Assembly (NCBI GenBank): GCA_008933805.1
Contig: WBUH01000018.1
Span: forward strand, 1-64,000
Direction: 5' to 3'
Source of the DNA: Bacteroidota bacterium
GTDB lineage: Bacteria; Bacteroidota; Bacteroidia; UBA8524
DNA: 64,000 bases
Every line of letters begins with the position of its first letter. Position 1 is the stretch's first letter. The notes under the pieces are model-generated. The model was not told where the DNA came from. It made no database searches and was given only the letters and a program-made list of their open reading frames with translations. Position numbers and translations under genes: made by a program. Shown piece after piece: positions 6,701 through 61,433 of the stretch.

Positions 6701-6858
6701 AATACTTTAACGAAGCCGCTAAAATAGTTCATTTTACCTTTTGTTAACGCAAAAGAATGCCCACAAGTGATGTGGAAAACACTAACACTGCAAGAATGGG
6801 TTGTATTGGTGCTAAAGATTGCCTGCTTAAGTGGTTGCTGTACAATTTTACAGGAGTG

Positions 6859-6888
6859 TTGCCCGCACTTAAAAAAGTGGTAGTTTTG
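6859..6888 (+). promoter_or_regulatory. Promoter of the hydroxybutyryl-CoA dehydrogenase gene
   Basis: TTG at 6859-6861, a 19-bp spacer and TAGTTTTG at 6881-6888 match the Bacteroidota promoter consensus. The spacer holds a short palindrome, CACTT-N4-AAGTG (6866-6879), which could be an operator. The predicted transcript would start roughly 20-25 bp before the ATG. Confidence 0.6.
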
Positions 6889-6916
6889 CGCAAAATCATC
6901 ATACTATATTATATAT

Positions 6917-7825
6917 ATGAAAAATATTACCGTAATAGGTTCGGGCACAATGGGCAATGGTATTGCACACGTTTTTGCCCAAAACAACTTTAATGTATCA
7001 CTTGTAGATGTTAACGAAGCTGCATTGCAACGTGCAACTGCAACTATAGGCAAGAATCTTGACAGGCAGGTTGCCAAAGGCTTGATAACTGAAGAACAAA
7101 AAGCTGCAACATTAGCCAATATAACCACGCATACCCAACTTTCATCAGGTGCAGCCAATGCTGATTTGGTAGTTGAGGCTGCTTCTGAAAACTTTGATAT
7201 CAAAACGTCAATCTTTAAAGAGCTAGATAAAGTAGCCCCTGCAAATGCTATTCTTGCCAGCAATACATCTTCAATTTCAATTACCCGTATAGCAGCCGTT
7301 ACCACCCGCCCCGGTAAAGTAATCGGTATGCACTTTATGAATCCGGTACCTGTGATGAAGCTTGTTGAAGTAATAGCAGGTTACGATACTGAAAAAGAAG
7401 TTACCAATACCATTATGTCTCTATCAAAAGAGATTGGTAAAATACCTACGTTGGTAAACGACTATCCCGGGTTTATTGCAAACCGTATTTTGATGCCGAT
7501 GATAAACGAGGCTATCTATTCATTATATGAAGGTGTTGCAGGGGTTGAAGAGATAGACACTGTAATGAAACTGGGTATGGCACATCCAATGGGACCATTG
7601 CAGTTGGCTGATTTTATTGGTTTGGATGTTTGCAAAGCAATACTTGAGGTAATGTACGAAGGTTTTGGAAATCCTAAATATGCACCTTGCCCATTGTTGG
7701 TGAACATGGTAACAGCTAAGAACCTTGGCGTAAAATCGGGTCGCGGCTTTTATGATTACAGCCACGGAGGTAAAGAGTTGGTCGTAGCACCTCGTTTTGC
7801 TGTAAACCAAACACAAACAGCTTAA
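6917..7825 (+). CDS. hbd: 3-hydroxybutyryl-CoA dehydrogenase
   Basis: This NAD(P)-dependent enzyme interconverts acetoacetyl-CoA and 3-hydroxybutyryl-CoA in fatty-acid or butyrate metabolism. The N-terminal Rossmann fold starts with VIGSGTMGNGIAHVF (residues 5-19). The catalytic segment GMHFMNPVPVMKLVEVI lies near residue 137 and contains the family histidine. The C-terminal 3HCDH domain (from about residue 185) includes NDYPGFIANRILMPMINEA and GPLQLADFIGLD. The 302-residue length is slightly longer than the usual 280-290. It is a single gene with its own promoter and terminator. The product could equally be named PaaH-like 3-hydroxyacyl-CoA dehydrogenase; chain-length preference cannot be read from sequence. 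Confidence 0.92.
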   Translation: MKNITVIGSGTMGNGIAHVFAQNNFNVSLVDVNEAALQRATATIGKNLDRQVAKGLITEEQKAATLANITTHTQLSSGAANADLVVEAASENFDIKTSIFKELDKVAPANAILASNTSSISITRIAAVTTRPGKVIGMHFMNPVPVMKLVEVIAGYDTEKEVTNTIMSLSKEIGKIPTLVNDYPGFIANRILMPMINEAIYSLYEGVAGVEEIDTVMKLGMAHPMGPLQLADFIGLDVCKAILEVMYEGFGNPKYAPCPLLVNMVTAKNLGVKSGRGFYDYSHGGKELVVAPRFAVNQTQTA

Positions 7826-7848
7826 AACAATACTCTGGTATGATATAA

Positions 7849-7878
7849 GCCGTCTTGTTAACTCAAGGCGGCTTTTTT
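7849..7878 (+). terminator. Intrinsic terminator after hbd
   Basis: The stem GCCGtCTTG/CAAGgCGGC with a 6-nt loop is followed directly by TTTTTTG. It begins 24 bp after the stop codon. Confidence 0.85.
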
Positions 7879-8184
7879 GTTTGTATAGCTTCAGTAAACA
7901 CTCTATACAAGTGCTTTCAATCGCTACTCCCCTATCCGCAATAGTAACTCGTTGATTTATTACTGATTGCAACTTCTCTGCTACATCCAACTCCCACGGA
8001 TTGTTATAAATATAACTTAAATAAACGAGGTTTTTTTGAATAGAGGTGTCTTTAACTTTCTTTTTTTGTTGTTTAGAATGATTTTGTATTTAGTATTATA
8101 TACATTGTTAATCAATGAATTATGTTTTTATAAAAAATAAATGTCATTTTATTGTATGTATTGTTAATTTTTTTTGTAATTTGG

Positions 8185-8274
8185 CTGTAGAAAAAGGAAA
8201 GAGAGTTTAATATCCCATCAATCCTACCTTAAGCCTATAGCCGCTCCAATTACTCCGGGAGCGGCTTGTTTTTT
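8185..8274 (+). ncRNA. Candidate small RNA ending in an orphan terminator
   Basis: No gene on the plus strand leads into the strong terminator at 8240-8274, because hbd already has its own terminator 365 bp earlier. An A+T-rich stretch with a weak promoter-like TAATTTGG (8177-8184) lies about 60 bp upstream of the hairpin. A transcript of roughly 90 nt is therefore possible. There is no convincing reading frame in it. I do not recognise the RNA family. Confidence 0.35.
8240..8274 (+). terminator. Orphan intrinsic terminator
   Basis: Perfect 8-bp arms GCCGCTCC/GGAGCGGC with a 10-nt loop are followed by TTGTTTTTTG. No open frame ends just before it. Confidence 0.8.
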
Positions 8275-8592
8275 GTATATCAGTCAGTTACGATTTAATC
8301 CTTTCATCCCCTACGGTTAATTCTATAGTCAGTGATGCTTGCTTTGTTACATTGTAAAAAATTGTAGAGGCTGGCAAAGTTTAGAGGCATTTAGTACTGT
8401 TTTTACAACATAAAAAACATGATTTTCATCAATTATGATGTGTTTTTTTCTATTTTAAGCAGAGGTTAACGCACGTGAAATGCCCGTAGTTATTGTAACA
8501 AAGGTTATAAACCTCGTATTTATTGGGCATGAGAACATAACCCCTTGTGAACAGCGGCGTTTAGAGTATCTTAAAAAGAATTGAGCTTGCTG
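8275..8592. other. Non-coding stretch before the beta-lactamase gene
   Basis: I see no reading frame, tRNA or strong promoter here. A weak hairpin CATCA-N4-TGATG followed by T's occurs at about 8433-8453, and a short palindrome AGGTTATAAACCT near 8502. The stretch is the downstream region of the convergent beta-lactamase gene. Confidence 0.4.
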
Positions 8593-9420
8593 CTATTTTA
8601 TGATGCCTTCGGCACGAAGTATTGCCAGGCTGATTTCAATTCGTGAATGAACAAGATTGTCTTTGCTAAACTCAATGTTGTTGGCAAAAAAGTAGGGCTT
8701 TCCGTCTTTCTCTACCCAGCCTACATACCATCCGGTGCTGTTTTCTACCCGCAACCCCCAACCGGTTTTTGCGCGCATTGTATAAGGAACGTTTTGTACC
8801 AACATCACTTCTTTAACCGTGTTCATTGTTTTGCTACTAAACGGCAAAGCATTGTTATACAATCGTTCTAAAAAAGCAATTTGTTCATAGGGGCTGATTT
8901 CTAGTCCTTTTTCTAACCAAAAATCATCAATATTCGGGGTTGTTACCTTGTTGCCATAGCCTACAGTGTCAAGCCAATGTTGCATACGGGTCTGCCCTGC
9001 TCTTCGGGCCAACTCTTGGTAACAGGGCACACACGAAACCCTAAAGGCTTCTTTCAAGTTCATGTCTTTGTTCCAGTTTTCATTCCCTCGCTTTTCACCG
9101 TCCCACTTAATAATTTCATTTGTATCTTTTATCACACCGGTTTCCAGTGCTACCAGTGAGTTGAAAATCTTAAAGGTTGATGCCGGTGTGTATCTTGTCG
9201 CGGCTCTCTCCGGGTTAAAAACCCTAACGGTACTATCAGTTGGGCTGTACAACACAAAACAACCTTGTATGCCTATACTGTCGTAAAACTTCTTCCACGA
9301 GTCAACAATTACCGTATCAATAGTTTTTGATGCAACCGGGGTTTGGTTTTGTATACCAGAGTTGGGTTTACAGGCTGCAAATAGTAGTGCCGAAACAAAT
9401 AGTAAACAGTAAGGTTTCAT
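8593..9420 (-). CDS. Class D (OXA-type) beta-lactamase, lipoprotein
   Basis: This is a serine beta-lactamase of class D, which hydrolyses penicillins and sometimes other beta-lactams. All diagnostic motifs are present, counted from the chosen start MKPYCLLF: STFK (Ser81 nucleophile, Lys84 to be carbamylated), SCV (129-131), YGN (155-157), Trp168 in FWLEKG, and KTG (218-220). The signal sequence ends in lipobox LLFAAC (Cys17), so the enzyme is probably anchored in a membrane. The frame extends 36 codons upstream, but those residues precede the lipoprotein signal and overlap the neighbouring promoter, so I start at 9420. It is divergent from a MerR-family gene 107 bp away. The spectrum, including any carbapenemase activity, cannot be predicted. 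Confidence 0.93.
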   Translation of the reverse strand: MKPYCLLFVSALLFAACKPNSGIQNQTPVASKTIDTVIVDSWKKFYDSIGIQGCFVLYSPTDSTVRVFNPERAATRYTPASTFKIFNSLVALETGVIKDTNEIIKWDGEKRGNENWNKDMNLKEAFRVSCVPCYQELARRAGQTRMQHWLDTVGYGNKVTTPNIDDFWLEKGLEISPYEQIAFLERLYNNALPFSSKTMNTVKEVMLVQNVPYTMRAKTGWGLRVENSTGWYVGWVEKDGKPYFFANNIEFSKDNLVHSRIEISLAILRAEGIIK

Positions 9421-9473
9421 ACTATAAATATAGTTCACGGGAGTATTTGATTTAAAAAAACTAAAAATTTTTC

Positions 9474-9506
9474 TTGACTCTAACGTTACGTGGTGGTCTA
9501 AGTTTG
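9474..9506 (+). promoter_or_regulatory. MerR-type promoter with operator
   Basis: TTGACT (9474-9479) and the Bacteroidota -7 element TAAGTTTG (9499-9506) are separated by 19 bp, the long spacing typical of MerR-controlled promoters. The spacer contains the perfect 9-bp dyad ACGTTACGT (9484-9492), like the core of known TipA-type operators. It directs transcription of the MerR gene beginning 22 bp downstream, so autoregulation is likely. Confidence 0.7.
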
Positions 9507-9527
9507 TGATTGAATTACGGCAACACA

Positions 9528-10292
9528 ATGGAACGGTACTCGGTTAAACAACTTTCAAAAATGGCAGGGGTAAGTGTGCGCACGCTTCACCACTACGATG
9601 AATTGGGACTTCTTACGCCCAAAGAACGTACCGACGCGGGGTACAGGGTTTACGGGCAAAAAGAGTTGATACGGTTGCAACAGATACTCTTTTATAAGGA
9701 GCTTGATTTTCCGTTGCGGGATGTAAAGGAGTTATTAGACGATCCAACGTTTGATTACCTGACGGCATTGCAAGGCCACCGCAAAGCTATTATGGAACGA
9801 AAGACCCGACTGGACATTTTGTTGACCACCATTGACAAAACCATTTTAACATTAAAAGGAGAACAAACTATGAGGACAAATGAGGAGCTATATGCAGGCT
9901 TTACCAAAGAACAGGCTGAAAGTATGAGATTGGAGGCTATGGATAAATACGGGAAAGAAACCGTTGAGACCTCGGAAAATAACCTGCGTAAATTGAGTAA
10001 AGAGCAGTTGAAAGCACTAAAAGCGGAAGGCGAAGAGATTGCATTGTCAATTGCAAAGTTGATGCACCTTACCCCCAATGAAGATGCCGTGCAACAGCAA
10101 ATAGACCGACACTACGAACACATTTTGCAAATGTGGGGCGGAGCTGTTGCTAAAGAAAACATACCACAAGCATATAAAGGTCTTGCCGCATTGTATGTTG
10201 AAGATAGCAGGTTTTACGCAGGGATTGCCGAGGGTTTTAACCAATTCTTAAGTGATGCAATCAGTTACTATGCTGATACCAGACTTGCATAA
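9528..10292 (+). CDS. MerR family regulator with TipAS domain
   Basis: The N-terminal winged helix (MERYSVKQLSKMAGVSVRTLHHYDELGLL) and a long dimerisation helix to about residue 110 are typical of MerR activators. The C-terminal half (about 120-250, with YAGFTKEQAE and a late EGFNQFLSDAISYYA) is a TipAS domain. In Streptomyces TipA, TipAS binds thiopeptide antibiotics and switches the protein to an activator. The ligand here is unknown. ATG at 9528 is preferred over an upstream codon at 9510, because the MerR-type promoter ends at 9506 and transcription should start near 9513. A class D beta-lactamage gene lies divergently; whether it is controlled by this protein is open. A bidirectional terminator follows. 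Confidence 0.88.
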   Translation: MERYSVKQLSKMAGVSVRTLHHYDELGLLTPKERTDAGYRVYGQKELIRLQQILFYKELDFPLRDVKELLDDPTFDYLTALQGHRKAIMERKTRLDILLTTIDKTILTLKGEQTMRTNEELYAGFTKEQAESMRLEAMDKYGKETVETSENNLRKLSKEQLKALKAEGEEIALSIAKLMHLTPNEDAVQQQIDRHYEHILQMWGGAVAKENIPQAYKGLAALYVEDSRFYAGIAEGFNQFLSDAISYYADTRLA

Positions 10293-10300
10293 ATAGCAAT

Positions 10301-10327
10301 AAAAAAGCCCGCTTTTGCGGGCTTTTT
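10301..10327. terminator. Bidirectional intrinsic terminator
   Basis: The stem AAAAAGCCCGC/GCGGGCTTTTT with a TTTT loop lies between two convergent genes and has an A-run on one side and a T-run on the other, so it can serve both. Confidence 0.85.
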
Positions 10328-10351
10328 AAATCTCTTTTACACCAAATATAA

Positions 10352-10906
10352 TTAAGCTGTTTGCAGCTTTAATGCAGGTACGTATTGTTTAGCAAGTGCA
10401 TATCCGCCAAACAAAACACCGTTGTAAATCAAATCAGAATAGAGCCCGTTAGTAGCAAACGATACAGGACCGGGTAAAATTTGGTTAGCAGCAAAAGGCA
10501 AAGCCGCAGTGTAGCTGGCTATTAAGCCGCTGAAATCATCGGCATACAAACCGTAAGCGTCAGCAGCCCAGCTGCCAAAGTTAGTAACGATGAAAAACAA
10601 TACTGAACTTGCTACCGATGCAAGCAATACGTTGCCTACAGCAGGTTTCTTAATCATAGTGCCCATCCATACGATAATTGCCATTGATACATATACAAAC
10701 AGCATGGTGGGGTGAAAACCTAAAAATAAGTCGCTGATAATCATGGTAGCCACAGGCACCAAAAACGCCCATTTTTTATCTTTGATATAAACACCCGAGA
10801 ATAAAGCGGCTGCCAACACAGGAGTAAAATTAGGCCAATGTGGTATTAAGCGGCCAAGTACGCCGGCTACTACAAGTGCTATTACAACAGTAAGGTTCTT
10901 TTTCAT
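10352..10906 (-). CDS. DUF6580 family membrane protein
   Basis: The 184-residue protein (start MKKNLTVVIALV) has about five transmembrane helices: residues 4-20, 30-45, 48-70, 75-92 and 95-120, with a more polar region before the last hydrophobic stretch (155-175). The conserved motifs RLIPHWPNFTPVLAAALF and SDLFLGFHPTMLFVY are typical of the DUF6580 family, which resembles small substrate-capture components of vitamin transporters; that comparison is inference. No transporter ATPase is adjacent and I see no riboswitch upstream. It is divergent from the subtilase gene and ends at a terminator shared with the MerR gene. Confidence 0.75.
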   Translation of the reverse strand: MKKNLTVVIALVVAGVLGRLIPHWPNFTPVLAAALFSGVYIKDKKWAFLVPVATMIISDLFLGFHPTMLFVYVSMAIIVWMGTMIKKPAVGNVLLASVASSVLFFIVTNFGSWAADAYGLYADDFSGLIASYTAALPFAANQILPGPVSFATNGLYSDLIYNGVLFGGYALAKQYVPALKLQTA

Positions 10907-11092
10907 AAGTATAGAATACGATTGCAAAATAAACCATTTGCGGGCAAAGGTGCAAATGGCAATACAAATAGGCTGTTCATTTTTGTTTACGTTACCATCT
11001 GTCGATTAAGATTGTACCCTCTACCTTCTTTTTTCTTAACATTGCAATTGTTCATTCTCACCAATTTAGTATTACATCCGTCTACCTATTAT

Positions 11093-13048
11093 ATGAAAAC
11101 CACCCAAAAAGCCTTTTTGCTTTTACTGTCCGTTTTTAGCGCAACACTAGCCATTGCCCAGCCAAAACGGGTTACCGATTCGTTATCGCTAAAAGTTAAT
11201 AGGGTTTCGCCCCTGCACAACGATTATACAACCTACGGTTTTCAGCAGGCGGTTACGGGTAAAGGGGTAATTGTGGGTATTGTTGATGTGGGTTTTCAGC
11301 TAAATCATCCCGCGTTTTTAGATAAAATGGGTACTAAAAACCGTGTTGTTCGTTTTTGGGATCAAACAATAAGTTTGGGCACACCGCCACAGGGCTATTC
11401 ATACGGAACTTTATATACCGATGTTACCAAAATAGATTATAAAAACTACGATGGCACCCACGGCACCCATGTGGCAGGTATTGCGGCTGGTTCTGGTTAC
11501 GGCACGCCCAACTACAACCAAGCTGGCAATGCTCCCGATGCAGAGTTGGTATTTGTACAGATTAAGTATAGTAACGACACCATCCCTTCAGGAGCAAGGG
11601 GAGATTATTTAGTAGCTAACCCTGCTATTATTGATGCTTTTGAATACATTTTTAAGTATGCAGATTCGGTTGGAAAACCTGCGGTGATTAACCTTAGTTG
11701 GGGAATGCACACGGGTCCGCACGACGGAACTTCGTTGTTTGACCAAGCTGTTGATGGGTTGATAGGCAAAGGCAAAGTAATTGTGGGTGCAGCCGGTAAC
11801 GAAAGAGGTCGCAATATGCACTTTGGACATACTTTTACAGGCGATACTGTATCTGCTTGGATAGGTGAAGCCATTAAACGCGATGCAACCTACGAAAGTA
11901 TTTACGCTGATTTTTGGGCGAATGCCGGCAGCGAGTTTTCAATTCAATTAAACCTGTTTGATACCTTGGGTAACTTATTAGGCTATTTACCCTTTGTGAG
12001 CAGCAGTTCTAATAGCTATTCAGAAGCAATGTTTACAAACGGAACCGATACATTGTCAGCAATTTTTGAATGTATCGCTGCATCACCGTTAAACGGAAAA
12101 TCAAACATACTTGTTAAAGCATACAACAACCACCCTAATACTAATTATGTGGTAGCTCGTTTCACTTCGGCCAATGCAGTTTTACACGGTTGGAATTCAG
12201 GAGGGGTTGATAGGTGGACTTCAGGAGAGTTTGATAGTATGGTTAGAGGCTACCAACCATTCTCAAACATGAAAATGGGTGATAATGATTATATAGTAGG
12301 TGAAAACGGAGGAACTGCAAAAGGAATTATTAGTGTGGGGGCGTATGCTACCTCGTTTATATGGACGGATGCCTGGGCCAATATTCACTCTACCTATGCC
12401 CTGCCCGGTTATTTGGCAAACTTTTCAAGTCAAGGCCCTACTGTAGATGGCCGCATAAAGCCTGATGTGGTTGCACCCGGTATTATGATTTCATCAGCGC
12501 TAAACCGCTATGCGTTTGATACCACCAGCAGCACTTACATTAGCATTATTGGCAACGATACTAACTATTACGGTGGTATGGGGGGCACTTCAATGGCCGC
12601 ACCACAGGTTGCCGGTATTGTAGCACTAATGCTGCAAATAAACCCATCACTTACTAACGAACAAATACGAACCATTTTGCACAATACGGCAGCAAGTGAT
12701 ACCGCCACCGGAACTACCCCTAACAATGTTTACGGCTGGGGCAAAGTAGATGCATTGTCGGCTTTACAAGCGGTGAAAGGGACTACATCAACAGGTAAAG
12801 TTTTAGCAAGCAATGGGGTATTGGTGTACCCTAATCCTACAAAAAACAAGTTTTACATTGATTTTAAAAACACTGATAATCAAATAGTTAATTGCGAAAT
12901 AACAACTATTGAAGGTAGAAAGATTTTTGAAAAGCGTACTACAGATACGCAATTACAAATTGATGCGGAAGGATGGGCTACAGGTGTATATTTGCTGAAA
13001 ATTGAAAGCCTGCAAGGCACCACTACCCTTAAAATTTGTAAGAATTGA
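11093..13048 (+). CDS. Subtilisin-like serine protease secreted by T9SS
   Basis: A signal peptide (MKTTQKAFLLLLSVFSATLAIAQ) precedes an S8 peptidase domain with the full triad: Asp65 in VGIVDVGF, His123 in GTHGTHVAG, and Ser500 in GGTSMAAPQV. An insertion of about 250 residues lies between His and Ser, as in large Bacteroidota subtilases. The last 75 residues are a type A T9SS sorting domain (VYPNPTKNKFYIDF ... GVYLLKIESL), so the enzyme should be exported across the outer membrane and then released or anchored. ATG at 11093 is chosen because a signal peptide starts there; the frame extends 57 codons further up without sense. The stop overlaps the bshB1 start (TGATG). Confidence 0.92.
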   Translation: MKTTQKAFLLLLSVFSATLAIAQPKRVTDSLSLKVNRVSPLHNDYTTYGFQQAVTGKGVIVGIVDVGFQLNHPAFLDKMGTKNRVVRFWDQTISLGTPPQGYSYGTLYTDVTKIDYKNYDGTHGTHVAGIAAGSGYGTPNYNQAGNAPDAELVFVQIKYSNDTIPSGARGDYLVANPAIIDAFEYIFKYADSVGKPAVINLSWGMHTGPHDGTSLFDQAVDGLIGKGKVIVGAAGNERGRNMHFGHTFTGDTVSAWIGEAIKRDATYESIYADFWANAGSEFSIQLNLFDTLGNLLGYLPFVSSSSNSYSEAMFTNGTDTLSAIFECIAASPLNGKSNILVKAYNNHPNTNYVVARFTSANAVLHGWNSGGVDRWTSGEFDSMVRGYQPFSNMKMGDNDYIVGENGGTAKGIISVGAYATSFIWTDAWANIHSTYALPGYLANFSSQGPTVDGRIKPDVVAPGIMISSALNRYAFDTTSSTYISIIGNDTNYYGGMGGTSMAAPQVAGIVALMLQINPSLTNEQIRTILHNTAASDTATGTTPNNVYGWGKVDALSALQAVKGTTSTGKVLASNGVLVYPNPTKNKFYIDFKNTDNQIVNCEITTIEGRKIFEKRTTDTQLQIDAEGWATGVYLLKIESLQGTTTLKICKN

Positions 13049-13764
13049 TGAAAGTTGATATTCTGGCCTTTGCCGCACACCCTGATGATGTTGAGCTCGC
13101 CTGTTCGGGCACGGTTGCAAAACACGTAGCAATGGGCAAAAAAGTTGCAATAGTTGATCTTACTAAAGGAGAGTTAGGCACGCGAGGAACCCCTGAAGGA
13201 AGGCTGCAAGAGGCTGCTGAATCAGCAAAAATACTGGGAGTTGTTGCCCGTGAAAATTTGGGCATGAAGGACGGCTTTTTTGCCAACGATGGCGAACATC
13301 AATTAAAGATTGTAGAGATGTTGCGCAAATACCGCCCTGATATTGTTTTGTGCAATGCTGTGAGCGACCGTCATACCGACCATGGACGCGGCGGGGACTT
13401 GGTGGTTTCGTCGTGTTTTATCTCAGGGTTGGCAAAAATTGAAACCGTTAATAATGGCGAAAAGCAAGCCCCTTGGAGACCTAAAACAGTATTACGCTAC
13501 ATACAAGACTTTTTATATAAACCGGATGTAGTGGTGGACATTACCCCGTATTACGAAACCAAAGTAGCTTCGATAAAAGCATTTAAGACACAGTTTTTCG
13601 ATCCCGAATCTACTGAACCTCAAACACCAATTTCTGTCCCTCATTTTCTGGATTCAATTGAAGGCCGTTGCTTAGATATGGGCAGGTTTATAGGCGTGCG
13701 ATATGCCGAAGGCTTTACGGTAACCAAACCTTTGGGAGTTGAGGATATTACTAGTCTATACTAA
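13048..13764 (+). CDS. bshB1: N-acetylglucosaminyl-malate deacetylase (bacillithiol synthesis)
   Basis: This zinc enzyme of the LmbE/PIG-L fold removes the acetyl group from GlcNAc-malate, the second step of bacillithiol synthesis. The metal site is visible as AHPDDVE (His11, Asp13, Asp14) and the later HTDHGRGG near residue 112. The closing sequence SVPHFLDSIEGRCLDMGRFIGVRYAEGF is typical of BshB1 rather than of other LmbE proteins. The length of 238 residues is normal. The start codon overlaps the stop of the subtilase gene by one base. The pairing with a secreted protease seems accidental; bshA and bshC are not in this window. Confidence 0.93.
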   Translation: MKVDILAFAAHPDDVELACSGTVAKHVAMGKKVAIVDLTKGELGTRGTPEGRLQEAAESAKILGVVARENLGMKDGFFANDGEHQLKIVEMLRKYRPDIVLCNAVSDRHTDHGRGGDLVVSSCFISGLAKIETVNNGEKQAPWRPKTVLRYIQDFLYKPDVVVDITPYYETKVASIKAFKTQFFDPESTEPQTPISVPHFLDSIEGRCLDMGRFIGVRYAEGFTVTKPLGVEDITSLY

Positions 13765-30574: not shown

Positions 30575-31984
30575 CTATTCGATATAAACCAAGAATGATT
30601 GATTGCCGAAATCTTCACTTACTTCAACCTTTTGCATGCTTGATTTTTTATCTCTCTTGTTAAAAAAATAAATATCAAGGCTCTCTCTTTTTTCATTTGA
30701 TATTGTTAATGTGTTTAACCCTTTTTGAAACTTGAACTTGCATTTTTGTCGACTTCCTTTTAAATCAATTTTTTGCTGAGTCAAATGGTTTATTTCGAAA
30801 AAAATATCTTTCTGTTCGTTCGATTTCCTAATAATCTTAGCATAAACAATTGAATTATTAAATCTTAGCGTATCGATAACTCTATCAATATTTTCTGATC
30901 TTGATTGAAAACAGTTTGTTTTCAAATCAAATAAGTTTGCTTCAAGTTTTAAATGACTATTTCTTGATGAGTGAATGTAATAAACTTTAATTCTATAATC
31001 TGACTTGCTTGAAGAAAACACTTCCTCATTTGCCTGAAAAACAATAGTTGCAAAAGGGTTTGTTTTGACTATTGTCTCAAAGTAATAATCACCGGTGGCA
31101 CTTTTTATTAACGAAGCTCCATTTTCACTCTTTAAACCTGTGATCTTCTCGATTGCAACTTTAATTGGAATATCCATTTTCACAGGCCTATTAAGGCTGT
31201 CTTGGACTAAGATCCTAAATTCAATTCTCTTTTTATCATCTGAGATCGTTTGGCAACCATAAAAAGAGAATTTATAACTAAGTAAGTCTACTTTGTTATG
31301 TAGCATTTTCCTCTCATAATCAAGATCCCTAATCATTCTAAGATATTGCCCCGTGTCTGTTTTTAAAATACTATCAATGAATATTTGCCGCAAATATTTT
31401 TCTGTTAAGTACTGCATGTTTTCATTGCATTTTTCCAAGGGTTCTCTATAATTAAGCTGCTCGGCAAGTTTATCAACCTTTTCCCCTACATTCAGTATAG
31501 CCTCGAGTATACCTCTATTTCCAAAATTGATTATTTTCTCAAGCTTTCTTAATTGTATTGAATCCGCTTCCTCAATGAATTCAATGAATGAAACTTTCCT
31601 GTTTCCCTTTTGGATAACTTTCTCATTAAATATGGGAGCGTGATCAATCTCTAAAACTACCATTCCAACTTCCCTAAGGGTTTGTTTTGGTTCAGCAAGA
31701 ACAAACTCTTTATCTTTAATTTTAAATTTCAATAGATTAGGTAACCCAATAGTTTCATCGCTAAAGGCTCCTCCTGCTTTGGTAATGATTTCTTTAGTAA
31801 AAGTATTGTTACTTTTATCATTGTAAGTGACTTCAATTTTCAAATTACTTGGTATCTCATGCCCTTCCTTATTAATCAAAATACCTTTAAGGTATTTTGA
31901 TTTGGTTTTAGAATCATTATTTTGAGATTTAGAAAATTGACAAATGAAAATAAGTGATAGTAAGAGCAAAAATTTAATTTTCAT
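30575..31984 (-). CDS. Secreted protein of unknown function
   Basis: A signal peptide (MKIKFLLLLSLIFICQFSKSQ) precedes about 450 residues without a family I recognise. An early beta-rich part (KGILINKEGHEIPSNLKIEVTYNDKSNNTF) resembles a carboxypeptidase-regulatory-like or SpaA-like fold. A helical region follows at about 140-220, then more beta-rich sequence. It overlaps the upstream gene by 11 bp and uses A+T-rich codons unlike its neighbours. The pair looks like one accessory unit. A shared terminator lies just downstream. Confidence 0.65.
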   Translation of the reverse strand: MKIKFLLLLSLIFICQFSKSQNNDSKTKSKYLKGILINKEGHEIPSNLKIEVTYNDKSNNTFTKEIITKAGGAFSDETIGLPNLLKFKIKDKEFVLAEPKQTLREVGMVVLEIDHAPIFNEKVIQKGNRKVSFIEFIEEADSIQLRKLEKIINFGNRGILEAILNVGEKVDKLAEQLNYREPLEKCNENMQYLTEKYLRQIFIDSILKTDTGQYLRMIRDLDYERKMLHNKVDLLSYKFSFYGCQTISDDKKRIEFRILVQDSLNRPVKMDIPIKVAIEKITGLKSENGASLIKSATGDYYFETIVKTNPFATIVFQANEEVFSSSKSDYRIKVYYIHSSRNSHLKLEANLFDLKTNCFQSRSENIDRVIDTLRFNNSIVYAKIIRKSNEQKDIFFEINHLTQQKIDLKGSRQKCKFKFQKGLNTLTISNEKRESLDIYFFNKRDKKSSMQKVEVSEDFGNQSFLVYIE

Positions 31985-32432
31985 ATAAGGTTATGATAAA
32001 TGGTGTGGCAATGTTGTCAATTGTTAGATCTGCTGGAAACTTACCACTGTATTCTAGAGTATCATCGGGATTATTTATAATGTAAGTGAAAGTGTCAACT
32101 GTATTGCATTTTTCGCATTTAATAAGATTAAAGAAAGTTGTGCTACTTTCGCCCTCCATTGTGATGTATCCATTTTCATCACTTTCATATGTATCCTTGT
32201 TAAGGATATGAATCTTTTGTTGACGAAAAACATCAATACTACCGTCCTTCTTTTCAATTCTAAACATGAATTTATTTTGTGTACTTTTTCTGAAATGAGT
32301 ACAAAATGCGTCAACGATGAGCGGTTGTACAAAAATTCCGATTATTAAAGGGATTACGAAATACTTTACAGACAACTCAATATCTTTAATTCTTTTAATT
32401 GTTTTTGCAATTTTTTCTAGTATCATTTCCAA
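31974..32432 (-). CDS. Membrane-anchored protein of unknown function
   Basis: The 152-residue protein has one helix (about residues 22-42, VKYFVIPLIIGIFVQPLIVD) after a basic N-terminus, then a soluble beta-rich domain with a CEKC pair near residue 108. No family is recognised. A second Met at residue 3 could be the start. It is coupled to the downstream secreted protein by an 11-bp overlap and shares its A+T-rich composition. Confidence 0.6.
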   Translation of the reverse strand: MEMILEKIAKTIKRIKDIELSVKYFVIPLIIGIFVQPLIVDAFCTHFRKSTQNKFMFRIEKKDGSIDVFRQQKIHILNKDTYESDENGYITMEGESSTTFFNLIKCEKCNTVDTFTYIINNPDDTLEYSGKFPADLTIDNIATPFIITLYEN

Positions 32433-54893: not shown

Positions 54894-56996
54894 GTGCCGC
54901 AGTTTTTAGACACTTCTATTGAATACCTTAAAGGCATCGGGCCTCAAAAAGCCGATACCCTAAAGAAAGAACTGGGCATATTTACCTACGGCGATTTATT
55001 AAACCACTTCCCCTTCCGTTATGTCGACCGCAGCCACATCTATAAAATCGGTGAGCTGAAAGGCGATTTTGCCCACATACAGGTAAAAGGCAGGTTTTCA
55101 TCCTTTACTACTGAAGGTGAGAAACAAGCCAAGCGATTGAAAGCCTTGTTTACGGACGGTACGGGCTTTATGGAAGTAGTATGGTTTAAAGGCATTAACT
55201 GGATTGAAAAATACGTGCGACCCGGCAAGGAGTACGTGTTGTTTGGCAAACCCAACGAGTTTATGGGCAAGCTAAACATCGTTCACCCCGAACTGGAAGA
55301 CGCTTCGGAGTTTTTGGCCGAAGGGAACGCAGGATTTCAGCCGGTGTACAGCACTACCGAGATACTTAAACGGAAGGGATTGGACAGCAGGGGGCTTATG
55401 AAGGCCATTAAAGTACTGATGAATGACCGTGCGTTTAAAATGGAGGAAATATTGCCGCCCGATATTCTCTCTGAATTCAGGCTAATTGACCGACATACGG
55501 CGTTTCAAAACATCCACTTCCCCACTAACGATAACGACCAACGGAAAGCCCAATTCAGGCTGAAATTTGAAGAGCTTTTCTTTTTACAACTGAAAATGCT
55601 GCGCATACGCGGAATGCGTCGTAAAGATGTGCCCGGTATTGTGTTTAGCAAGGTGGGGCATTATTTTAATACGTTTTATAACGAAGTATTGCCGTTTGAC
55701 CTTACCAATGCCCAAAAACGGGTAGTAAAAGAAATACGGCAGGATATGGGCAGCGGCAAGCAAATGAACCGACTGCTGCAAGGCGATGTAGGCAGCGGCA
55801 AAACCGTAGTTGGGTTTATGTGCATGCTGATAGCCATTGATAACGGCACACAAGCCTGCATGATGGCACCTACTGAAATATTAGCGCAGCAGCATTATAA
55901 CAACATCCGCAAGTTTGCCGAAGATTTGGGACTGAATACCGCCCTGCTAACGGGCAGTACACCACAAAAAGCCCGCAAAGAGATGCTGGCCGCCCTTGAA
56001 AACGGCACCCTGCACATATTGGTAGGTACCCACGCTTTGATTGAAGACAAAGTGAAGTTTAACAACTTAGGTCTTACCATTATTGATGAGCAACACCGTT
56101 TTGGCGTGCAGCAACGTGCAAAATTGTGGAACAAAAGCCTCAGTATGCCCCACGTATTGGTAATGACAGCAACACCCATTCCCCGAACGCTGGCTATGAC
56201 TGTCTACGGTGATTTGGACACCAGTATTATTGATGAAATGCCCGTGGGGCGTAAGCCCATTAACACTGCCCACCGATACGACAACAACCGTTTGCGGGTG
56301 TTTGGGTTTATTGAAGAAGAAATTGCCAAAGGCCGCCAAGCCTACATTGTATACCCCTTGATCGAAGAAAGCGAAAAGCTGGATTATAAAAACCTGATGG
56401 ACGGTTTTGAATCGGTTACAAGGGCGTTTCCGGCACCAAAATACCAAGTGAGCATTGTACACGGGCAAATGAAACCCGATGCCAAAGAGTTTGAAATGCA
56501 GCGGTTTAAGCGCGGCGAAACTCAAATAATGGTTGCCACTACTGTTATTGAAGTGGGTGTAGACGTACCCAACGCCAGCGTGATGGTAATTGAAAGTGCC
56601 GAACGTTTCGGGCTAAGTCAGTTGCACCAGTTACGCGGACGTGTGGGGCGCGGTGCAGAACAAAGCTATTGCATTTTGATGACCAGTCACAAACTTAGTC
56701 ACGATGCCCGTAAACGCTTAGAAACCATGGTACGCACTACCAATGGTTTTGAGATTGCCGAAGTGGATTTGCAACTGCGCGGCCCCGGTGACATTGAAGG
56801 TGTGCGCCAAAGCGGTATTGCCGATTTGAAACTTACCGACCTGAGTACTGATAAAGAGCTGGTAACCATTACTCGCCACTCAGCCGAAAAGCTGATAGAA
56901 GCCGATATGCACCTGCAACTACCCCAACACCGCCCCTTGCTTCATTTCTTGCAAAGCCGCCGCAAAGACGGGGTGAATTGGAGCAGGGTGAGTTAA
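54894..56996 (+). CDS. recG: ATP-dependent DNA helicase RecG
   Basis: RecG unwinds and reverses stalled replication forks and Holliday junctions. The N-terminal wedge domain begins IEYLKGIGPQKADTLKKELGIFTYGDLLNHFPFRYVDR. The helicase motifs follow in order: Walker A GDVGSGKT (about 297-304), IIDEQHRFGVQQR (about 396-408), VMTATPIPRTLAMTVYGDLD (about 420-440) and the C-terminal helicase part with ATTVIEVGVDVPNASVMVIE and QLHQLRGRVGRG. The length of 700 is normal. GTG at 54894 is the only plausible start and gives the expected MPQFLDTSIEYL. It is a single gene with a noncoding 230-bp upstream region full of palindromes. Confidence 0.96.
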   Translation: MPQFLDTSIEYLKGIGPQKADTLKKELGIFTYGDLLNHFPFRYVDRSHIYKIGELKGDFAHIQVKGRFSSFTTEGEKQAKRLKALFTDGTGFMEVVWFKGINWIEKYVRPGKEYVLFGKPNEFMGKLNIVHPELEDASEFLAEGNAGFQPVYSTTEILKRKGLDSRGLMKAIKVLMNDRAFKMEEILPPDILSEFRLIDRHTAFQNIHFPTNDNDQRKAQFRLKFEELFFLQLKMLRIRGMRRKDVPGIVFSKVGHYFNTFYNEVLPFDLTNAQKRVVKEIRQDMGSGKQMNRLLQGDVGSGKTVVGFMCMLIAIDNGTQACMMAPTEILAQQHYNNIRKFAEDLGLNTALLTGSTPQKARKEMLAALENGTLHILVGTHALIEDKVKFNNLGLTIIDEQHRFGVQQRAKLWNKSLSMPHVLVMTATPIPRTLAMTVYGDLDTSIIDEMPVGRKPINTAHRYDNNRLRVFGFIEEEIAKGRQAYIVYPLIEESEKLDYKNLMDGFESVTRAFPAPKYQVSIVHGQMKPDAKEFEMQRFKRGETQIMVATTVIEVGVDVPNASVMVIESAERFGLSQLHQLRGRVGRGAEQSYCILMTSHKLSHDARKRLETMVRTTNGFEIAEVDLQLRGPGDIEGVRQSGIADLKLTDLSTDKELVTITRHSAEKLIEADMHLQLPQHRPLLHFLQSRRKDGVNWSRVS

Positions 56997-57085
56997 TCCT
57001 ACTAAGTCGATTAATGTTGACATCTTGAATTCTTGTTATTTCTACTGCGCTTATTATTAGTTATTTTTATCCAAAAATTGCTTTC

Positions 57086-58462
57086 ATGCGCAAAGAAATT
57101 GATTTATACAAAAGTGATGCTATTAGTATCATTGATGAAGACAAACTCGGACGAACGTCATTTATAAATGTTGTTGCTGACTTTATTAATAGCCAAGCAA
57201 CCGAAGTAAACAAGGACGGTAAAATTGAATATCGTAATTTAAAAGACCCTCTAACAATAGGCATTTATGGAAAATGGGGATATGGTAAAACGAGCATTAT
57301 CCGTTGTGTAGAAAATAAACTAAAACACTCTTTTTATACAGCCCAGTTCAATCCTTGGATGTATAACAATGAGGATGATTTGGTTAAGCATTTGTTTGAG
57401 ACTCTTGTCGCATCTATAAGCGGAACCAGTGATGCAAGGAAAAGAAAAAAATTGGTTAAGGGGATTGCAAAATACCTTCTTCATTTTACTAAAGGCATTA
57501 AGGCTGATATAAAGTTGGGAGGTTTTTTATCGCATATACAAACAACACTTGGTGTTAATTTACAAAGCATTAGTGAAGCTGCGTTAAAAGACATTGACAA
57601 AAAAGAAACCGTATACCACGTTAAAGAACAAATAAATGATGTTTTAAGGTCTTTAGCGAATCCAATTGTAGTGTTTATTGACGATATCGATAGATTAAGT
57701 AAAAGCGAAGTGTATATGCTTTTCAAAACTGTTCGGCTAATTGCGGATTTCAAAAACATCATTTACGTGCTATCCTTTGATGATGAAATGGTGGCAAAAT
57801 CTATTAAAGATAACTTCGCGGGAGGCTCTGATTATGATGGGTTTCATTACATAGAAAAAATCATCGATGTACCCTTGCGTGTTCCACAAATTGACGGTCA
57901 TTTGATGGATAACTATTTCAGAGAAAAATTAGGAATATCAAGCAATGTACTTATAACAAATTTCCATAGACAATTAAACATCATTACCCATTATTTATTC
58001 GATTGTCCACGTGATTGCATTAGGGTTGCAAATTCAGTTAATCTTATGAAATCTTTTCTTAAAGACAATATTGACTATGAGGATTTAATTCTAATTGAGT
58101 CCATTAGACTTAAAGCTCCACACCTTTTCTATTATCTAACAAGATATTATAACGACATCATCGTCAATAATGACCCTTTGTATTATGGAAACACGTATAA
58201 TGTCCCAAAACAATTGGAATTAAAACTTGGCGTTGGGGGCATCACCAATAGAGCGATTTCAATGTGGCAATTCTTTTTCCGTCATTTATTACGAGTTGAT
58301 ATTATTAATAGCCTTAAAATTGAGATTCTGGATGATAATGGCCGCATATTGAAAGTTGAAGAATTTGATCAAAACTCCACACTACTTAATGATGGTAGCA
58401 ACAGGCTATACAACCCCAAGGTACTTGAGCAATATCTAAAAACGACTCTATTTTTAGATTAG
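57086..58462 (+). CDS. KAP family P-loop NTPase
   Basis: The 458-residue protein has a KAP-type NTPase core: Walker A GIYGKWGYGKTS (59-70), the family motif QFNPWMY (87-93), Walker B VVFIDDIDR (195-203) and the downstream YIEKIIDVPLRVP near 255. Unlike many KAP proteins it has no transmembrane helix inserted between the Walker motifs, so it should be cytosolic. KAP NTPases include PifA of the F plasmid, which excludes phage T7, and other members are found in defence islands. Codons are clearly richer in A+T than in recG before it and mntR after it. The stop codon lies inside the palindrome that precedes mntR. No partner gene is adjacent. Confidence 0.85.
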   Translation: MRKEIDLYKSDAISIIDEDKLGRTSFINVVADFINSQATEVNKDGKIEYRNLKDPLTIGIYGKWGYGKTSIIRCVENKLKHSFYTAQFNPWMYNNEDDLVKHLFETLVASISGTSDARKRKKLVKGIAKYLLHFTKGIKADIKLGGFLSHIQTTLGVNLQSISEAALKDIDKKETVYHVKEQINDVLRSLANPIVVFIDDIDRLSKSEVYMLFKTVRLIADFKNIIYVLSFDDEMVAKSIKDNFAGGSDYDGFHYIEKIIDVPLRVPQIDGHLMDNYFREKLGISSNVLITNFHRQLNIITHYLFDCPRDCIRVANSVNLMKSFLKDNIDYEDLILIESIRLKAPHLFYYLTRYYNDIIVNNDPLYYGNTYNVPKQLELKLGVGGITNRAISMWQFFFRHLLRVDIINSLKIEILDDNGRILKVEEFDQNSTLLNDGSNRLYNPKVLEQYLKTTLFLD

Positions 58463-58469
58463 TCTAAAA
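58452..58469. promoter_or_regulatory. DtxR/MntR-type operator
   Basis: Perfect 7-bp arms TTTTAGA and TCTAAAA surround TTAG. The core resembles the DtxR/IdeR box (TTAGG..AG.CTAA). It lies at the -33 region of the mntR promoter and includes the stop codon of the KAP gene. MntR probably represses its own operon here when Mn(II) is ample. Confidence 0.7.
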
Positions 58470-58476
58470 TTTATTT

Positions 58477-58484
58477 TATATTTG
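58477..58484 (+). promoter_or_regulatory. -7 promoter element of mntR-mntH
   Basis: TATATTTG matches TAnnTTTG exactly and ends only 4 bp before the ATG, so the transcript would begin at or next to the start codon. The mRNA is then leaderless or nearly so. Confidence 0.6.
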
Positions 58485-58488
58485 CCGC

Positions 58489-59151
58489 ATGTTTAGTTTT
58501 ACCGAAGAAAACTACCTGAAGGCAATCTTTAAACTTTCGCAGCGCGACGGTGGCAGCGAAGTTAGTACCAACGGTATTGCCGAAGAGCTTGAAACCAAAG
58601 CAGCATCGGTTACCGATATGTTGCGCAAACTATCGGAAAAAGGATTGGTGAACTACGAAAAGTACAAAGGCGTAACCCTCACCCCTGCCGGCAGGTACGT
58701 AGCGGTTACCATTATCCGTAAACACCGCTTGTGGGAAGTGTTTTTATGCAACAAACTAAAATTCAGGTGGGACGAAGTGCACGATGTAGCCGAACAACTG
58801 GAGCATATACAAAGCGATTTATTGATTGACCGCTTGGACGACTTTTTAGGTTACCCACAAAACGACCCGCACGGCGACCCTATCCCCAATAAAAAAGGAG
58901 AATTTCCTAAAGAAATGCAGATATGTGTGGCCGATGCAAAAGTGGGTACAAAATACACTATCAGCGGTGCCAGCGACGAAGACACCAGCTTTTTGAAATA
59001 CTTGGATAAACTTGAAATTACCTTAGGACTGCCGTTTGAAGTAGAAGAACGTTTTGAGTTCGACGGTTCAATGTCGGTGAAAATATCGGGCAAACGCAGC
59101 CTGCAAATCAGCAAAGAAGTAGCACAACATCTTTTTGTAACCAAGGTATGA
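58489..59151 (+). CDS. mntR: MntR/DtxR-family metal-dependent repressor
   Basis: The regulator binds Mn(II) or Fe(II) and then its operator. Residues 1-65 are the winged helix (EENYLKAIFKLSQRDGGSEVSTNGIAEELETKAASVTDMLRKLSEKGLVNYE). About 66-140 is the metal-binding and dimerisation domain (HRLWEVFLCNKLKFRWDEVHDVAEQLEHIQSDLLIDRLDDFLGYPQNDPHGDPIP). The rest (about 145-220) is the SH3-like/FeoA domain. The start at 58489 gives the standard N-terminus MFSFTEENYL. The stop overlaps the mntH start by four bases (ATGA), so the transporter is in the same operon, and the palindrome upstream is the likely operator. Confidence 0.93.
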   Translation: MFSFTEENYLKAIFKLSQRDGGSEVSTNGIAEELETKAASVTDMLRKLSEKGLVNYEKYKGVTLTPAGRYVAVTIIRKHRLWEVFLCNKLKFRWDEVHDVAEQLEHIQSDLLIDRLDDFLGYPQNDPHGDPIPNKKGEFPKEMQICVADAKVGTKYTISGASDEDTSFLKYLDKLEITLGLPFEVEERFEFDGSMSVKISGKRSLQISKEVAQHLFVTKV

Positions 59152-61031
59152 CACAGCATACTACCTCAAAATCACTCAGCGAAGTACACGGAAGTGTGGC
59201 CGTGCCTCATAAACGCGGATTTTGGAAAACCCTATTGGCATTTTTAGGCCCCGCCTACTTGGTAAGCGTAGGCTATATGGATCCCGGCAACTGGGCCACT
59301 GATTTGGCAGGCGGCAGTCAGTTTGGCTACGCCCTAATTTGGGTGCTGCTGATGAGCAACCTGATGGCTATACTATTGCAAAGCCTTAGTGCCCGTTTGG
59401 GATTAGTAAGAGGGCTTGATTTGGCGCAGGCCAGCAGGCATACGTACCCCAAATTCATCAACATCCCCCTGTATATATTGGCCGAGGTAGCCATTGCCGC
59501 CTGTGATTTAGCCGAAGTAATCGGGATGGCCATAGGATTACAACTCTTGTTTAAAATCGACTTGCTTACAGGGGTAATTATCACCCTTGCCGATACCTTC
59601 TTACTGTTATTCCTCATTAACAAAGGCATACGCAAAATGGAAGCCTTTATCGTGAGCATGATTGCCATTATCGGGGTTTCGTTTTTTATCGAGATGCTGA
59701 TAGTGAAACCCAACGCCTCCGAATTGGTACGCGGGTTTATCCCCTCATTGCCCAACAGCAGCGCATTGTACATTGCCATTGGTATTATAGGAGCTACGGT
59801 GATGCCGCACAACCTGTACCTACACTCATCGTTAGTACAAACCCGCAGGTTTAACCGTGCCGATGGCGGACTGAAAAAAGCCATACGTTTCAATTTTATT
59901 GATTCGGCGGTAGCCCTTAACCTTGCACTGTTTGTCAATGCGGCCATTCTTATTTTAGCAGCTGCGGCCTTTTACAAACGAGGCCTGCACGATGTAGCCG
60001 AGATACAAGACGCTCACTTACTGCTTACCAATATCTTCGGGACGGCTGCCCCTGCCCTGTTTGCCATTGCACTGATTGCCGCCGGACAAAGCAGTACCAT
60101 TACAGGCACACTGGCCGGACAAATTGTAATGGAAGGATATTTGAACCTGCGCATCCGTCCTTGGTTGCGCCGAATACTTACCCGCTTAATCGCCATTATC
60201 CCCGCTGTTTTTACTATTGTATATTTTGGTGAAGCAGAGTTGGGTAAATTATTGATATTAAGTCAGGTAATACTAAGTTTACAATTAGGATTTGCCATCA
60301 TTCCCCTTATCCATTTTGTGAGCGATAAAACCAAAATGGGCGAGTTTGTAATTAAGCCTTGGGTAAAAATTTCGGCATGGGTGGCAGCCGCCATTATCGT
60401 AGGATTGAACGTTAAACTGGTAATTAACGAACTAAACGGCTGGATAGAAAGCGCAGGCAGCAATGCTGTTTACATTTATTTATTTGTGCTGCCCTTAGTA
60501 ATTGCAGCGGGTATTTTGCTGCTGTATATCACCTTTAGCCCGTTGTTTAAAACCGCTAAAACACTCAAAGCCACCGTACCGCACGGAAAAGCCCTTGAAT
60601 TGGGTGATTTGCAACTGAAAACCTACAAGAACATTGCCGTTACCATTGATTTCTCAGACATGGATAAAGTGGCGATTGAAAACGCTATTTCGCAAGGCGG
60701 AAAAACAGCGGCTTACACCCTGATACACATTGTAGAAAGTGCGGGAGCCAGCGTAATGGGCGAAGACATTGAAGATTTGGAAACGGGCGAGGATATTAAT
60801 AACCTGAACAGCTATTGCGCCCACCTGCAATCGCTGGGGTATAGTGCCGAAGTAAGCATTGGATATGGTAATCCAGCCAAAGCAATCTCAGAGATTGTAA
60901 ACAACTCTGCCGCCGATTTAATTGTTATGGGCGGACACGGCCATAAAACGTTTAAAGACATTTTGTTTGGGGCTACCGTAGATACAGTGCGCCACAACGT
61001 TAAAATCCCCGTGTTGGTGGTAAGGAAGTAA
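59148..61031 (+). CDS. mntH: Nramp divalent-metal transporter fused to a UspA domain
   Basis: The protein imports Mn(II) or Fe(II) with protons. The first 460 residues have eleven or so transmembrane helices with the metal-site motifs DPGN (45-48) and MPH (219-221) of the Nramp family. From about residue 485 to 627 a universal-stress-protein domain is fused (KNIAVTIDFSDMDKVAIENAI ... IVMGGHGHKTFKDILFGATVDTVRHNVKIPVLVVRK), with the G-x-G...FGAT ATP-binding-type motif. The normal Nramp length is about 420-450, so the UspA tail is an extra regulatory module. It overlaps mntR by four bases and should be under its control. Confidence 0.93.
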   Translation: MTQHTTSKSLSEVHGSVAVPHKRGFWKTLLAFLGPAYLVSVGYMDPGNWATDLAGGSQFGYALIWVLLMSNLMAILLQSLSARLGLVRGLDLAQASRHTYPKFINIPLYILAEVAIAACDLAEVIGMAIGLQLLFKIDLLTGVIITLADTFLLLFLINKGIRKMEAFIVSMIAIIGVSFFIEMLIVKPNASELVRGFIPSLPNSSALYIAIGIIGATVMPHNLYLHSSLVQTRRFNRADGGLKKAIRFNFIDSAVALNLALFVNAAILILAAAAFYKRGLHDVAEIQDAHLLLTNIFGTAAPALFAIALIAAGQSSTITGTLAGQIVMEGYLNLRIRPWLRRILTRLIAIIPAVFTIVYFGEAELGKLLILSQVILSLQLGFAIIPLIHFVSDKTKMGEFVIKPWVKISAWVAAAIIVGLNVKLVINELNGWIESAGSNAVYIYLFVLPLVIAAGILLLYITFSPLFKTAKTLKATVPHGKALELGDLQLKTYKNIAVTIDFSDMDKVAIENAISQGGKTAAYTLIHIVESAGASVMGEDIEDLETGEDINNLNSYCAHLQSLGYSAEVSIGYGNPAKAISEIVNNSAADLIVMGGHGHKTFKDILFGATVDTVRHNVKIPVLVVRK

Positions 61032-61398
61032 TCTCACCCCTAAATCCCCTAAAGGGGACTTTACGAACGACGAGCGTGTGCTGAGGTTTCCCTCCTTCGC
61101 TATAGCTTGTGAGGTTAGTAAAGAGGGGTGTTCAAACGGATTGCTTCAAAACCCAAAAGCGGTTTTTCGCAATGACGATAGGAGCGCAAGTGCGGTTGCC
61201 CTGAGCCTGTCGAAGGGTGCGGCTGCAATAGCTAAATTCTAAAAAAGAAAGCCCCCTCATCATTGCGAGGTCTCCCGAAGCAATCTTACCCCTAAATCTC
61301 CTAAAGGGGACTTTCCCCAACGACGGGTAAGTGCGGCGGTTCCCTCCTAGGGTAGGCTTGCGGGTTGGTAAGGAGAGACTAAGGGAGGTGTCAAACGG

Positions 61399-61433
61399 AT
61401 TGCTTCAAAACCCAAAAGCGGTTTTGAAGCAAT
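61399..61433. repeat. Hairpin inside the second repeat copy
   Basis: Perfect 14-bp arms ATTGCTTCAAAACC/GGTTTTGAAGCAAT enclose a 7-nt loop. In the first copy (about 61139-61174) the right arm is decayed to a TCGCAAT end. Confidence 0.75.

Follow-up and report, generated by a model that had tools for sequence, protein, structure and literature searches.

The window analysed here, a 64,000-nucleotide stretch of a Bacteroidota contig, carries on its forward strand, at positions 57086 to 58462, a gene for a short, PifA-like KAP P-loop ATPase, an open reading frame of 458 amino acids running from ATG to TAG. Upstream lies recG (54894 to 56996, forward strand), 89 nt away. Downstream follow mntR (58489 to 59151, forward strand), which encodes a DtxR/MntR-type repressor with a FeoA domain, and, at 59148-61031, the gene for an Nramp manganese transporter (mntH) with a universal stress protein domain fused at its C-terminus; all three neighbours were assigned with Pfam. 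The KAP gene, mntR and mntH are co-directional. A preliminary description of this DNA had placed the gene alone between housekeeping genes, and that is its setting. Between 56800 and 58700 neither a promoter nor a terminator of the gene's own stood out (6 promoter-like matches where 6.7 were expected, and 1 terminator-like match where 1.5 were expected), and no RNA families or tRNAs were found in the window. Further downstream, at 61025-61425, two direct-repeat pairs, one of 38 nt (92%) and one of 35 nt (100%), with a spacing of about 255 nt, sit between mntH and the next, opposite-strand gene, read by eye as alaS.

The protein matches PF07693 (KAP_NTPase) with an E-value of 3.8e-47 and 161.4 bits against the Pfam cut-off of 20, and its motifs are intact, in agreement with the earlier reading of a complete KAP P-loop ATPase. 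In the protein alignment, Walker A, GIYGKWGYGKTS, occupies codons 59-70 (57260 to 57295) and Walker B, IVVFIDDIDRL, codons 194-204 (57665 to 57697), both on the forward strand, as are the features that follow. G62, G65, G67, K68, D199 and D200 are invariant in nine of nine aligned proteins, as are D202 and R203. An Asp at codon 232 (57779 to 57781) and an Arg at codon 309 (58010 to 58012), likewise invariant in 9/9, are candidates for sensor 1 and sensor 2, named by analogy with D253 and R377 of RdrA, which serve as reference residues in an excerpt of PMC9994260. Ahead of Walker A, codons 39-52 (57200 to 57241) hold an insert (T-E-V-N...E) that the alignment assigns to a short clade of these proteins, and that is modelled as a beta-hairpin of two short strands, 39-41 and 47-49, with a pLDDT of 82-90 over the block. 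Codons 361-458 (58166 to 58459) form a C-terminal tail with no confident fold; the structure model, which covers the KAP monomer, has a mean pLDDT of 68.7 and falls below 50 over residues 359-458. The highest 19-residue Kyte-Doolittle mean is 1.12, where the usual limit for a membrane helix is 1.6, and therefore no membrane helix is predicted, as the preliminary description had stated. Among solved folds, the best match of residues 5-365 is RdrA of RADAR (8hr8, 8fnt; Z 17.5 over 314 residues, rmsd 5.7, 12% identity), followed by the ORC family at Z 13.7. Plain Foldseek also ranks RdrA first (2.9e-7), with HslU nearly tied (7.8e-7), and a search for solved structures by the KAP sequence found none. 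As modelled, the RdrA match reflects a common AAA+-like core and not a function.

The gene differs in composition from its flanks. Its GC content is 0.334 and its GC3 0.305, compared with 0.474 and 0.529 for recG and 0.445 and 0.489 for mntR, and the 60-base G+C counts given earlier (21 at 57361, 34 at 56761) are exact. The value is low but not unique in the window: 3.0% of stretches of the same length have a GC content as low, and among the 44 window ORFs of at least 150 aa that remain once overlapping ones are discarded, the KAP gene is the second most deviant in codon usage (z = -3.9), with two ORFs, 30575-31984 and 31974-32432, below it in GC. Because these two are even more A+T-rich, composition alone is no proof of recent transfer. 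They are adjacent, have a GC content of about 0.30 and no Pfam or PADLOC match, and form another candidate acquired stretch. Across loci, the GC content of the KAP gene is lower than that of the rest of its own locus in 13 of 14, the window included.

The end of the gene runs into a palindrome, TTTTAGATTAGTCTAAAA, at 58452 to 58469 (unstranded), which is a candidate operator of mntR; the KAP stop codon TAG (58460-58462) lies in its centre. A little further on, TATATTTG (58477 to 58484, forward strand) is a candidate -7 element of the mntR promoter, so named from TAnnTTTG, which we take to be the Bacteroidota -7 consensus, and it is the sole match to this pattern in 56851-58500. The comparison covered the 150 bases preceding mntR in 30 relatives, namely three from the family and the best 27 others of a class sample in which 130 of 149 genomes had a matching mntR. 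Sites with at least 14 of 18 palindrome matches occur in 22 of the 30, compared with 22 of 1500 single-base shuffles, and sites with at least 13 of 18 in 27 of the 30, compared with 108 of 1500. Two of the family relatives score 18/18 and 17/18; the third (L005), whose mntR is more distant, scores 11/18. At L003, L004 and L076-L102, mntR is preceded by recurrences of an 18-base palindrome whose type, TTTTAGAYTARTCTAAAA, is likely to be an MntR box of Bacteroidota. Such recurrence makes it probable that the candidate operator is genuine and predates the KAP gene at this place; the palindrome would supply the last codons of that gene. The earlier claim that the gene reaches into the mntR operator stands to this extent: the stop lies inside a recurrent palindrome to which MntR would presumably bind. 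The gene itself ends at 58462, however, and position 58469 is the end of the palindrome.

The distribution of the gene suggests that it does not belong to the core of its lineage. No KAP homologue was found at E<=1e-3 in any of the four other genomes of the family, one of which is 80% complete; a search at the level of the order returned the same genomes as the family, and the genus consists of the window genome alone. Of 395 genomes sampled from the class, 52 (counting that of the window) hold any homologue at E<=1e-3. The preliminary description had named retention of the gene at one place with normal codon use in all relatives as the observation that would count against its proposal. What we find is absence from 4/4 family genomes and the deviant codon usage given above. 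Neither a recG-mntR adjacency nor an empty site appeared in four family recG loci, covered for 0.5-1.5 kb beyond recG, or in the mntR loci of 30 relatives, covered for about 1.5 kb to either side, and no convincing terminal repeats or target duplication surround the window gene. Since the adjacency is absent from these loci, we infer rather than observe insertion at this exact spot, and the recG-mntR adjacency may itself be young. Taken with the patchy spread in the class and the closest homologue described below, an insertion with empty sites, the gene is best classed as accessory, and it was probably acquired horizontally.

This closest homologue, L036, comes from a genome of another family (G013), shares 41% identity and has 469 aa. 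Its flanks are dtd and a large gene that has a CHU_C-type end, two genes that converge on it. All eight other genomes of its genus, three of them 70-83% complete, lack a KAP gene at E<=1e-20; one congener, G211, has a distant KAP match (6.9e-9). Three of the eight present an empty site, with the flanking genes 5 (G155), 0 (G238) and 89 nt (G184) apart, where the gap in G013 measures about 2.5 kb. The same gap holds another small ORF in G263 and other ORFs, including a DUF433 gene, in G057, and in G211, G093 and G125 the upstream gene was unmatched within the stretch examined. Two duplicated pieces lie within the G013 gap: 295 nt from the end of the upstream gene (94%) and 39 nt of dtd-end DNA (97%), the latter copy encoding the last residues of L036 and its stop and being followed by a DUF433 gene. 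No integrase was recognised among the ORFs listed at this locus. Because congeners lack the gene, with flanks 0-89 nt apart or other ORFs in the gap, L036 can be regarded as an accessory insertion in a variable spot. The gap between the CHU_C-type gene and dtd (L036:8321-11207 and L105-L112) can be described more broadly as a variable insertion spot of this genus, marked by partial copies of neighbouring gene ends and by DUF433 genes.

The company kept by homologues was proposed earlier as a check on a role in defence. Of 13 relatives with listed surroundings, 6 have defence-type genes nearby, an uncontrolled count over those of their neighbours that were scanned; the 13 are L036, L048, L038-L041, L049-L051, L053, L064, L052 and L065, and their neighbours were scanned in part against PADLOC, first those promising by eye and then others for balance, with Pfam used for some. 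The six are L040 (IetS, 6.3e-249, and a zeta toxin), L048 (SoFic, 2.5e-41, and a Gp49-like and HTH pair), L050 (Dsr2/SIR2, 5.2e-40, and a NucC-like nuclease), L051 (Vsr, 1.7e-16), L052 (HmaC, 2.9e-131) and L053 (type I restriction, 2.9e-36). The other seven have no such match or only weak or generic ones. Weak matches at L039 (1.8e-6) and L049 (MTase_I, 2.1e-8) were left uncounted, and the scanned neighbours of L038, L064 and L065 gave no defence-type match. An exonuclease beside dtd at L036 (PDC-S48/DEDDh), present as the same gene in the congeners, was set aside as generic, as was a HemW-like housekeeping match at L041. In the window, neither flank of the KAP gene is known to hold a defence gene. 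As a rough yardstick, PADLOC matched one of 10 other window ORFs, with a generic OmpA/MotB-type hit. At L050, in Pedobacter chitinilyticus (5593-12172 and 12267-13703), a long PifA-like ATPase is flanked on one side by a SIR2/Dsr2-like protein of 1340 aa and on the other by a NucC/PD-DExK-like nuclease, and the three may constitute a defence cluster.

We propose that the window gene encodes a lone, short, PifA-like anti-phage ATPase that was acquired by its present host, a reading to which we give a probability of about 0.55. The phage-defence idea of the preliminary description retains its footing in kinship, PifA being the best PADLOC match and RdrA the nearest fold, and in the company found at six relatives; it gained no support beyond these. 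Under this proposal, a horizontally acquired single-gene accessory locus would supply a soluble KAP ATPase whose catalytic motifs are intact and which acts as a stand-alone anti-phage protein. The ATPase would oligomerise through its AAA+-like KAP core, would assemble as a ring, and would sense a phage product or a phage-induced state. ATP hydrolysis would then shut the cell down, an abortive outcome like that proposed for PifA. The short form would have to do so either without the C-terminal part of PifA or with a cell factor replacing that part. Membrane depolarisation has been proposed for PifA in the available portion of the BASEL study (PMC8594841), and PifA-type depolarisation is not known to be tied to any part conserved in the window protein. 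Our literature searches found no phage data or experiment on the short clade, and no paper joining 'KAP ATPase' with 'anti-phage' or 'KAP P-loop' with 'PifA'.

An alternative that we consider unlikely is decay or truncation: the gene would descend from a long PifA-like ATPase, would have lost the C-terminal part and would be non-functional. In a tree of 26 KAP proteins, the window protein, L036 and L048 (443 aa, from Bacteroidetes bacterium GWF2_33_38) form one clade (100/99), whose neighbours are the long forms of Desfum bin_9 and Pedobacter chitinilyticus (95/95). In favour of decay, long relatives measure 616-1089 aa, against 443-469 aa for the short-clade proteins. The 98-residue window tail, with its low pLDDT, does not significantly resemble the tails of L036 and L048 (scores as high arise in 146 and 204 of 500 shuffles), and the KAP stop codon falls in DNA shared with the mntR palindrome. 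However, the two nearest homologues are short as well, and their tails are alike (0/500 shuffles score as high); the grouping of all three short proteins in one clade argues further against decay, and the window frame is open, with catalytic residues intact at about 40% identity. Among the 26 aligned proteins, the insert before Walker A, 12-13 residues long, is present in these three only (0/23 other rows); the class sample also contains other KAP frames of 437-518 aa, at 21-29% identity. Members of the short clade were found in G000, the window genome, and G013 in the class sample of 395 genomes, and in G000 only in an overlapping phylum sample (395 genomes, E<=1e-30). L048 came from a pattern search of genome contigs that used two short patterns only and returned six loci. 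Another short row of the tree, L051 (9902-11988, from Pseudozobellia sp. WGM2), is a PifA-like ORF of 461 aa with one of 197 aa directly after it, and the pair is probably a split long form.

Slightly less probable is a role in the service of a mobile element or in another conflict, such as plasmid exclusion or replication control, in place of phage defence. Distant homologues at E<=1e-5 occur in 1150 plasmid records, and phage records gave weak matches in 2 of 50,697. IMG/VR yielded two loci from one scan and none from three others; one relative, L064, sits on an IMG/VR contig whose other genes were read by eye as phage terminase and portal. Such a role also finds an echo in the excerpted BASEL study (PMC8594841), where PifA is suggested possibly to serve primarily a non-immunity function, because only T7 and one close relative were sensitive among the phages tested, and where it is asked whether PifA evolved as immunity at all. 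Against this, recG, mntR and mntH, the neighbours of the window gene, include no replication, transfer or integrase gene, and the defence-type genes near six relatives point the other way. A housekeeping partnership with mntR and mntH in manganese control is very improbable: the gene is co-directional with both and overlaps the palindrome, but among the mntR loci of 30 relatives, covered for about 1.5 kb to either side, 0 have a KAP match at E<=1e-5, mntR and the KAP gene of G013 lie on different contigs (C10 and C30), and inspection of the L048 surroundings by eye showed no mntR.

Beyond the proposal of a lone anti-phage ATPase, a bolder extension can be offered, though we hold it to be improbable. 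For two of the three short-clade genes, those of the window and L036, the stop codon lies in a neighbour's DNA. The short clade might form a minimal class of its own within PifA-type immunity: having lost the C-terminal part and acquired a hairpin for sensing ahead of Walker A, it would spread as a naked frame that lacks a stop and takes its last codons from the landing site, from the mntR palindrome in the window and from the 39-nt dtd-end copy at L036. In the window, this landing could couple expression to binding by the manganese repressor. More generally, a naturally shortened relative in which the ATPase core is kept and the C-terminal part is absent would reveal where in PifA phage sensing resides and whether the core is able to act by itself. 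The locus also illustrates, in the sequence itself, how a lone accessory gene can sit next to housekeeping genes with its stop codon in a neighbour's DNA.

Several known systems share the KAP domain or its fold with the window protein. Tmn, an anti-phage KAP-family NTPase, is described in the part of PMC11846954 available to us as having two transmembrane domains, whereas none is predicted in the window protein. QatA matches through its KAP domain (PADLOC, E 2.5e-24), but the NCBIfam score of 81.1 bits falls far below the cut-off of 600 and no qatB, qatC or qatD is among the named window neighbours; in an excerpt of a preprint (PMC12424860), mutation or deletion of QatA did not fully disrupt defence by its operon, a finding that counts against our proposal. 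PDC-S20, a PADLOC candidate under whose name our literature search found no paper, resembles the window protein in length (models of 446-464 aa), and its match (E 4.1e-21; residues 14-288 of 458, model positions 14-280 of 464) is partial and weaker than that to PifA. RdrA, described in the excerpted PMC9994260 as a heptameric AAA+ ring, offers the best solved fold; unlike RADAR, the window has no rdrB-like gene among its named neighbours, and identity to RdrA is only the 12% noted above.

PifA has long been known, and it is the closest of these systems. The best PADLOC match of the window protein is PifA (PDLC02361, E 5.9e-51, model positions 37-353 of 720). BLAST aligns it with PifA of the F plasmid at 24% identity over 326 columns (residues 58-357), and a profile comparison gives a probability of 99.0 and an E-value of 7.8e-18 over 277 columns. 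The two proteins have in common the KAP core with its Walker motifs, and neither contains a strongly hydrophobic helix. They differ in length, 741 aa for PifA against 458, and the window protein is without the C-terminal part of PifA and carries the insert before Walker A. Their settings differ as well, pifC lying beside pifA on F where the window has recG and mntR. By its length and the part of the PifA model that it matches, the window protein is not a full PifA; it is ordinary as a candidate defence gene, and slightly unusual as a member of a short clade.
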